NCBI GenBank assembly: GCA_016302005.1
Contig: JAEDOK010000005.1
Location: forward strand, 1 to 24,398
Reading direction: 5' to 3'
From: Oscillospiraceae bacterium
GTDB taxonomy: Bacteria; Bacillota_A; Clostridia; Oscillospirales; Oscillospiraceae
Length of the DNA stretch: 24,398 nucleotides
Shown: positions 280 through 1,281 of the stretch, one piece after another
Position numbering within the stretch: position 1 is the first letter of the stretch
Layout of the letters: the number at the start of each line of letters is the position of its first letter
Made by a program: the position numbers and the translations under genes
Notes under the pieces: generated by a model
Databases searched by the model: none
Told to the model about the DNA's origin: nothing
What the model saw: only the letters and a program-made list of their open reading frames with translations

Positions 280-1281
280 ATGGAGCCCGAGAAAGCCGAC
301 ACCGCTCCCGCCAAGGGAAAATATCAAAAAATCGAACGGTGTCTCGGTAGATTTGTATGGAAGCTCGCCGTATGGCTGGTGATTTGCATGCCGATCGCAT
401 TTATCATGGTTGAGGTGATCGGCACACTGCATTTTTATCGCTATCCAAAGATCACGATGTGGACGATTCTCTTTTTCTGCCTCGCCTTGCTGCCAACGGG
501 CTGCGTTCTGATCACAAGGAAGCTTAAGCTCAAGCGTGTGACGAAATCCATCATCAGAAAGCTCTGCGCGTTATACCTTCCAATCAGCTTTTTTTGCTCC
601 TGCTTGTGCCTTGGTGGCTCCGAAACGACGGATTTTCGCTATTACAGACAGTTGGATGCACAATGTCTCGCAAACCGTTCGGAGGTTTTTCAGGCGCTGT
701 TCCCCACATGGCCGCATTGTTTTATCAATGAAGCGCAGCCAAACGGCGATATAGAAACGGTTTATCTGGATGCCCATTACTATTACCGCAACCTACCGGC
801 GCTTGACTATACTTATGACATCTACGCCGAGTGGCCGCTGGAGCAAGAGAAATTCGAAAGCGAGATCACGCGCGTCACAGAGCTTTTTGAAACAAAAGCA
901 GCGGAGCATCCGTATTATACCAATCACCAATTAAAATGTGCAACGCACATTTTAATTGCGATACCGTGATTGGTACGAGACGTATTTTCGCGATGCTTAC
1001 CTTATCATCGCGAAAATGCAACGCCGGAACGGCGTTGAAAACCGATTAAAATGAATATTTTAATCGGTTTTCAGTATTACAAGTATGTGACGATGCAAAA
1101 AGGCGCTTATACCTGTCTGTTCTACTGTCGAGGAGACGCACCGTTTGAAACAGTGAGGGACAGCTACACCTATTATATCTTCGCCTACGACCCGCAAACG
1201 AACAAGGTGCGCTACATCATGTGCGACAGCCTTGAAAACGGCGCCGATCAGCCATATTATCTCGAGCTGGATTGGGAATAA
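280..1281 (+). pseudogene. hypothetical membrane protein gene interrupted by a 162-bp hairpin-rich insert
   Basis: The start chosen is ATG 280, with AAAGGAG at 266-272; an upstream in-frame ATG at 262 lacks a good ribosome site. The upstream part reads through three hydrophobic segments (about residues 25-50, 58-79 and 93-113) into a soluble tail rich in Tyr and acidic residues. After residue 211 the frame enters an insert at 913-1074 and stops at TGA 967. After the insert the same frame resumes (YYKYVTMQKGAY...) and ends at TAA 1279-1281. Removing the 162 bp restores a continuous 279-residue protein, so both halves belong to one gene. I do not recognise the family. A short ORF starting at ATG 1051 begins inside the insert and is probably an artefact. 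The gene is either inactivated, or read through by an unusual mechanism (see findings). Confidence 0.75.
913..1079 (+). repeat. 162-bp multi-hairpin element with TATTA flanking direct repeat
   Basis: The insert consists of four perfect inverted repeats in a row. Hairpin A has an outer stem 918-927/966-975 and an inner 14-bp stem 928-941/945-958 with a 3-base loop. Hairpin B has a 12-bp stem 984-995/1006-1017. Hairpin C has an 8-bp stem 1019-1026/1030-1037 with loop GAA. Hairpin D has a 15-bp stem 1038-1052/1057-1071 with loop GAAT. Hairpins C and D abut. TATTA at 913-917 is repeated at 1075-1079, as a target-site duplication would be. It has no ORF of its own, so if mobile it is non-autonomous (MITE-like or a palindromic repeat). 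I see no second copy in the window. Confidence 0.8.

Follow-up and report, generated by a model that had tools for sequence, protein, structure and literature searches.

The window, the whole 24,398-nucleotide stretch of Oscillospiraceae DNA that was analyzed, contains a gene whose reading frame is broken by a chain of hairpins. What is this insert, and what could have moved it there? Our preferred answer, to which we assign a probability of roughly 0.88 from sequence comparisons, is that the insert is a MITE moved in trans by a subgroup of IS630 transposons with TNA, not TA, as the target.

The interrupted gene and the limits of the insert

The host gene (positions 280..1281, plus strand), delimited from its open reading frame and by comparison with intact alleles, encodes a protein of unknown function that has about 280 amino acids in its intact form. 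In the window, the open reading frame terminates at position 969, and the stops that the host frame encounters lie within the insert, in keeping with an earlier note on this DNA that had described the insert as noncoding. Neither piece of the gene matched Pfam or NCBIfam profiles at E ≤ 0.01. Excising 162 bases rejoins the reading frame, and two intact alleles cross the insertion site uninterrupted, as ...AAEHPYYKYVTMQ.... One of these (P0001; 282 amino acids), from a cluster of 39 member sequences, is 96% identical to the 211-amino-acid query, while the other (P0007; 155 amino acids) is 98% identical across 41% of the query. The earlier note had described the resumption of the frame and had proposed a comparison with close strains for an uninterrupted allele. 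About 212 native codons precede the insert and the final 66 are severed from the gene, which is probably inactivated. Because intact alleles with 96 to 98% identity exist, the insertion is, judging from the alignments, recent. The MITE family explains one class of gene interruption.

The earlier note had placed a 162-bp insert at 913..1079. The 162 bases stand as the length that restores the frame, but the element itself is 159 bp long and runs from TAC to GTA at 918..1076 (plus strand), boundaries that we obtained from copies with different flanks. It is bordered by two copies of TTA (915..917 and 1077..1079, plus strand), each identified from the intact alleles and from flank comparison, the left one also from a TNA rule applied across copies. 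The left terminal inverted repeat, TACCAATCACCAATTAAAAT (918..937, plus strand), is identical at 15 of 20 positions to the right one, TACTGAAAACCGATTAAAAT as read on the minus strand (1057..1076), which was defined by end comparison.

The direct repeat around the insert is GTATTA (912-917 and 1074-1079). Since differing flanks set the boundaries at TAC...GTA, this repeat is the TTA duplication plus the element's own GTA (1074-1076), and the GTA in the left flank is a chance match to the element end. TATTA, which had been proposed as the flanking duplication, was ruled out when the flanks of copies gave TTA instead. TA was ruled out as well, by the intact proteins and by a nested case (L104) in which a 39-bp palindrome with TAA on either side lies inside an otherwise intact 44-bp element. 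When 39 + 3 bases are subtracted from this locus, the remaining 44-bp element falls into a size class already known, which indicates that TAA was duplicated. Empty sites are thus represented at the DNA level by L104 and at the protein level by P0001 and P0007.

Four hairpins, all given here on the plus strand, occupy 918-1076. Hairpin A (918..975) has an outer stem of 10 bp (918-927/966-975) and an inner stem of 14 bp (928-941/945-958). It is followed on its 3' side by the linker motif GAGACG (977..982), the first five bases of which are unpaired in the fold. Hairpin B (984..1017) has a 12-bp stem (984-995/1006-1017), hairpin C (1019..1037) an 8-bp stem (1019-1026/1030-1037), and hairpin D (1036..1073), which shares 2 nt with C and covers most of the right terminal repeat, a 17-bp stem (1036-1052/1057-1073). 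The back-to-back order and the stems of A, B, and C had been described correctly before; the stem of D is 17 bp, not 15 bp. An internal duplication suggested by recurring AAAATG and CAACGC motifs was not borne out, as copies differ in the loop of hairpin A (AAC, GTT, or AAA). What does recur internally is the left end, a copy of which, in inverted orientation, forms the 3' arm of the outer stem of hairpin A. Folding of positions 900-1090 as DNA gave -60.1 kcal/mol compared with -21.6 ± 3.1 kcal/mol for shuffled sequences (z = -12.3; 0 of 200 as low), and folding as RNA gave z scores of -9.1 on the plus strand and -9.5 on the minus strand.

Copies, size classes, and the TNA rule

We began the search for copies with the genomes of 20 loci encoding relatives of the host protein. 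One of these genomes (G001) held three near-full copies with 91 to 96% identity. Among 199 relatives of G001, matches at E ≤ 0.001 were found in six genomes (G001, G025, G028, G031, G033, and G034), the first five with copies at 91 to 98% identity and G034 with a diverged form. A fuller search of the six genomes recovered further copies, mostly in G033 and G034. By these comparisons, the element is present in multiple copies at unrelated sites in related genomes. The earlier note had named a pattern that would argue against a mobile element, with no other copy anywhere and every orthologue filled; what we found instead were copies with variable flanks and orthologues without the insert. Its proposal of a recently inserted, nonautonomous palindromic element is supported by the intact alleles, the differing flanks, and the target duplications. 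In the phage and plasmid collections, searches with the element returned only matches at E 6 that covered 11 to 17% of its length.

Within the subfamily of the window element, identical 3-bp flanks border 7 of 12 near-full copies. Two others (L081 and L085) have flanking triplets that differ in the middle base, one (L088) has a shortened right end and its flank was therefore misread by the script, and one (L103) has an altered first base and an altered right flank. In another near-full copy (L100; region 1579-1965, G033:C91), hairpin A contains a second insert, a palindrome-rich element of another kind that is about 210 bp long; the apparent duplication of about 19 bp at this second insert is the hairpin itself.

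The ends define a wider set of elements. A 20-base end pattern (≤2 mismatches) was searched for in 400 genomes from the family to which G034 belongs and occurred in 79, many with single hits, as was also the case for a reversed control. At least four hits were found in 12 of the 400 genomes with the true pattern and in none with the reversed one. Element sizes, taken either from a TNA-TAC...GTA-TNA rule or from paired ends in carrier loci, include 39, 44 to 50, 57, 70 to 72, 118 to 125, 141 to 189, 220, 262 to 263, and 319 bp, among others. On loci L021 to L179, the rule gave 118 raw hits, versus 2 on reversed sequences. For these loci together with the window, removal of 24 nested sub-hits followed by de-duplication left 67 distinct, nonnested elements. 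Identical TNA flanks were present in 51 of the 67, where 17.4 were expected; the rule itself requires the T and the A, such that only the middle base counts as evidence. The identical triplets were TTA (18), TAA (15), TGA (10), and TCA (8). The middle base differs in the other 16, and a few of the 67 resemble chance pairs.

Several shorter and longer forms were seen alongside the window type. Palindromes of 39 to 48 bp that fit the rule, with ends matching at 16 of 16 positions (L104, 1682-1720; L107, 904-942; L118, 45-92), are among the shortest units in this material, and hairpin A also occurs as a stand-alone 50-bp form flanked by TCA and TGA (L108). A second subfamily (L140 to L147 and L159, in genomes G229, G379, and G497) consists mostly of 159-bp elements, with others of 143, 259 to 263, and 319 bp. 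Where folded (two elements of G229), it forms one long imperfect hairpin, and its longer forms carry an extra block. Because short members amount to little beyond two facing ends, each terminal repeat comes to lie inside a hairpin; long members string further hairpins between the two ends and may have arisen as composites of short ones. Members of 39 to 50 bp, together with a recurrent hairpin chain that shows compensatory stem changes, are unusual. Of 53 copies with flanks of 500 bp, 12 sit in frames open for at least 150 codons, a rough count that had no matched control and that tentatively points to an intergenic bias.

The candidate mobilizer

The textbook target duplication of IS630 elements is TA. 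We found, in place of TA, a 3-bp TNA at two complete IS630-family elements from related genomes, at eight plasmid relatives, and at the MITEs, and for this reason we refer to the proposed mobilizer as a subgroup variant. The TNA duplication looks like a trait of this branch of IS630. The two complete elements, which have TAC...GTA ends and TTA on both sides, are 1,104 bp (L246, from G030) and 1,116 bp (L245, from G116) long; the first frame of the latter has stops. For the L246 transposase, the C-terminal half scored 141.7 bits against the NCBIfam IS630 model NF033545 (cutoff, 100) and 81.3 bits against DDE_3 PF13358 (cutoff, 28.6), and the N-terminal half alone scored 54.1 bits against the IS630 model. 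An IS630 end pattern taken from genome G474 located eight ends in 8 of 16 DDE_3 loci, with T-N-A beside all eight. Among the plasmid records, 869 had IS630 relatives. Of 11 relatives examined among the 25 listed, 8 had TAC ends and identical TNA triplets as read by script, three of these being ISAli3 copies from a single strain. A ninth (L258) had TTA on both sides, as judged by eye, with TTC ends, and two had no readable ends. The phage collection contained one distant transposase relative.

A link to genomes that carry the MITE comes from G025, which has a copy of the window element at 97% identity. One of its contigs (C148) encodes the C terminus of an IS630 transposase adjoining an end, TGA-TAC, that matches the left repeat of the element at 14 of 20 positions. 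A second (C42) finishes at an incomplete IS630-type end, TTA-TAC, that matches the left repeat at 17 of 20 and encodes SITGRKWIIECFN*, similar to the C terminus of the G474 transposase, SITGREWIVKCFN*. The complete copies L245 and L246 match the left repeat at 12 to 14 of 20 positions and the right repeat at 10 to 14 of 20. No complete insertion sequence was found whose ends agree with those of the element at all 20 bases. Of 18 carrier or candidate genomes searched for DDE_3 at E ≤ 0.001, 15 gave no hit, G034 and G033 included. G025 was negative in that search, yet a transposase fragment was found there by a fragment search, which among 296 relatives of G025 detected the transposase in 10 at E ≤ 1e-6, the complete elements L245 and L246 being among these hits. 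A multicopy insertion sequence may have been lost from draft assemblies.

From the matching target and similar ends of these transposons, we infer that the element is mobilized in trans by cut-and-paste chemistry. Autonomous copies within the same lineage would supply the enzyme, a DDE transposase (DDE_3) from the IS630-family subgroup related to ISAli3, and this transposase would bind the terminal repeats of about 20 bp and excise the element. It would then insert the element into T-N-A through cuts staggered by 3 bp, and their repair would produce the duplication.

Two further observations concern the IS630 elements themselves. In three genomes (L230, L245, and L246), an A-rich run after GCCTCAAAA lies near the point at which the transposase is split between two frames, an arrangement that suggests programmed frameshifting. 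Upstream of one IS630 copy in G474, positions 1-120 of L230 resemble, by eye, the 3' end of a group II intron.

Alternative explanations and known systems

The 3-bp duplication is by itself compatible with another enzyme, as IS5-family transposases (related to PIF/Harbinger) can also leave T-N-A or TWA duplications. That such an enzyme moves the MITE seemed promising from one DUF4096/DDE_Tnp_1 insertion sequence in G229, apparently lying between TGA-TAC and GTA-TGA, until further copies overturned the case through their ends and targets. Elsewhere, related copies, as judged by eye, lack TAC and have ends of GGCCTTGTTTGAAAA or the like next to a target that resembles TA; in G034, the IS5-type copies end in GGAACC after TTAA, CTAA, or TTAG, and only some follow TAC, again by eye. 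DUF4096 is present in 1 of 16 carrier genomes and in 29 of the 400 genomes of the family, G034 not among them, and although DDE_Tnp_1 occurs in 7 of the 16, TAC/TNA pairs accompany it in only two of those cases. We consider an IS5-type mobilizer very unlikely, and we rate marginally lower still a single-strand element (HUH/Y1, IS200/IS605, or REP-like) in which the hairpins serve as the recognized ends. Hairpins do stand at both ends of the element, which is typical of that group. Elements of the IS200/IS605 type make no target duplication, whereas a 3-bp duplication is found here; the element ends in inverted repeats, and the enzyme encoded by transposons whose ends match is of the DDE type. 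Single-strand elements also typically carry a guide sequence 5' of the hairpin, while hairpin A begins at base 1 and leaves no space for one. As separate observations, two IS5-type elements (L197, 253-988; L199, 1419-2290) have TACTA on one side and TAGTA on the other, next to TNA-like flanks, and look as though their insertion had split a palindrome of this type at its center.

A further possibility is that the hairpin chain is a structured RNA or an extruded single-stranded DNA module under selection within the MITE, for example, one that regulates neighboring genes or transposition. Such a module would comprise a branched helix on the left end, the GAGACG linker, and further hairpins, maintained by compensatory change across subfamilies with dissimilar stems. 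Relatives of the window form do share the layout of hairpin A on the left end, the GAGACG linker, and then further hairpins. The closure of hairpin A is GTA-TGA in G034, G420, and the G025 copy, resembling a third, outward-facing end with its target; it is GTA-CGA in most window-type copies, GCA-TGA in G032 and G114, and TTA-TGA in G109. We aligned 17 chosen copies (A1) and then extended the alignment to 21 rows (A3) with L052, L054, L061, and L127, excluding L100, which is interrupted by another insert; the two alignments agreed. In A3, 96.5% of cells pair, compared with 38.3 to 46.5% in slid controls, and both sides have changed at 12 of 36 pairs, although these counts include related rows. 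None of 500 shuffles reached the paired percentage or the covariation score, while further pair types were not in excess (266 of 500 shuffles were as high). Compensatory changes can also result from quasi-palindrome correction, without selection. Neither strand is clearly favored, with G-U occurring at 7 pairs versus 8 for C-A/A-C, although G-U cells are more numerous (31 versus 10).

The linker gives a similarly mixed picture. GAGACG stands directly 3' of hairpin A in elements of G034, G032, G114, G109, and G420 that have differing stems. Among 16 folded elements it is present in nine, and in eight of these it is unpaired, wholly or in all but the last base; in the G034 locus L168, the GAGA is paired. 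The seven folded elements without it are those of G386 and G486, one of G034, two of G229, and the 44- and 57-bp ones. An alignment of nine GAGACG elements plus that of G420 (A2) has the motif in a constant position next to stems that are unrelated, but its members were picked for GAGACG and its 10 of 10 is no test of the motif. RNAalifold found no pairs in A2, an outcome that counts against a conserved structure, possibly from a failure of MAFFT to align unrelated stems. Rfam gave no match at the cutoff over the element, with sub-threshold hits only (rox1, E = 0.14 and 0.99), and none over the related elements in 13 loci, where the sole hit, at the edge of L120, was a SAM riboswitch. Because GAGACG is exact, by eye, in only 14 of the 21 A3 copies, which span the window and G034 types, we slightly reduced an already low estimate for a selected module, which we regard as improbable, though well ahead of the other two alternatives. 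If it were true, the chain would have a role in transposition or in the control of flanking genes, and the elements would represent a class of mobile structured nucleic acids, not filler between repeats.

The elements described here define a family of very small transposons, some only 39 to 50 bp long, from uncultured gut Clostridia, and our preferred reading, a MITE moved by the TNA-targeting IS630 subgroup, ties them to a specific branch of IS630 that duplicates TNA and not TA. The family can be annotated as TNA-TAC...GTA-TNA, and it offers a minimal substrate for studying the end requirements of DDE transposases and any role of the hairpin chain. Among the titles listed by a literature search, none was on TNA-target IS630 elements or on MITEs of this bacterial group, and publication elsewhere is possible. 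Among eukaryotic elements, Tourist MITEs of the PIF/Harbinger type have a 3-bp duplication of the T-W-A type and an IS5-related transposase. The duplication is similar to that described here, but the partner of the present element is of the IS630 type, and the likeness would therefore be convergent. ISAli3 and related IS630-family elements share the TAC...GTA ends and lie between identical TNA triplets, and their DDE_3 transposases are homologous to the one proposed here; unlike the noncoding MITE, they are autonomous and about 1.1 to 1.2 kb long, and those examined came from Proteobacteria and Deinococcus. Other bacterial hairpin MITEs, such as Correia/NEMIS and RPE, are short and palindromic, and some lie within genes (PMC2229807), but they have TA or other termini, and the available part of that source does not describe for them a chain of A, linker, B, C, and D. 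Nor does it describe a hairpin chain for RUP of Streptococcus pneumoniae, a noncoding, multicopy element of 107 bp with terminal repeats like those of the IS630-family insertion sequence (IS630-Spn1) proposed as its mover (PMC2229807). By description, not by sequence, RUP is like the present element in being noncoding and multicopy with IS630-like terminal repeats; according to the same part of that source, it inserts at sites with TA, whereas the present element targets TNA with a 3-bp duplication.
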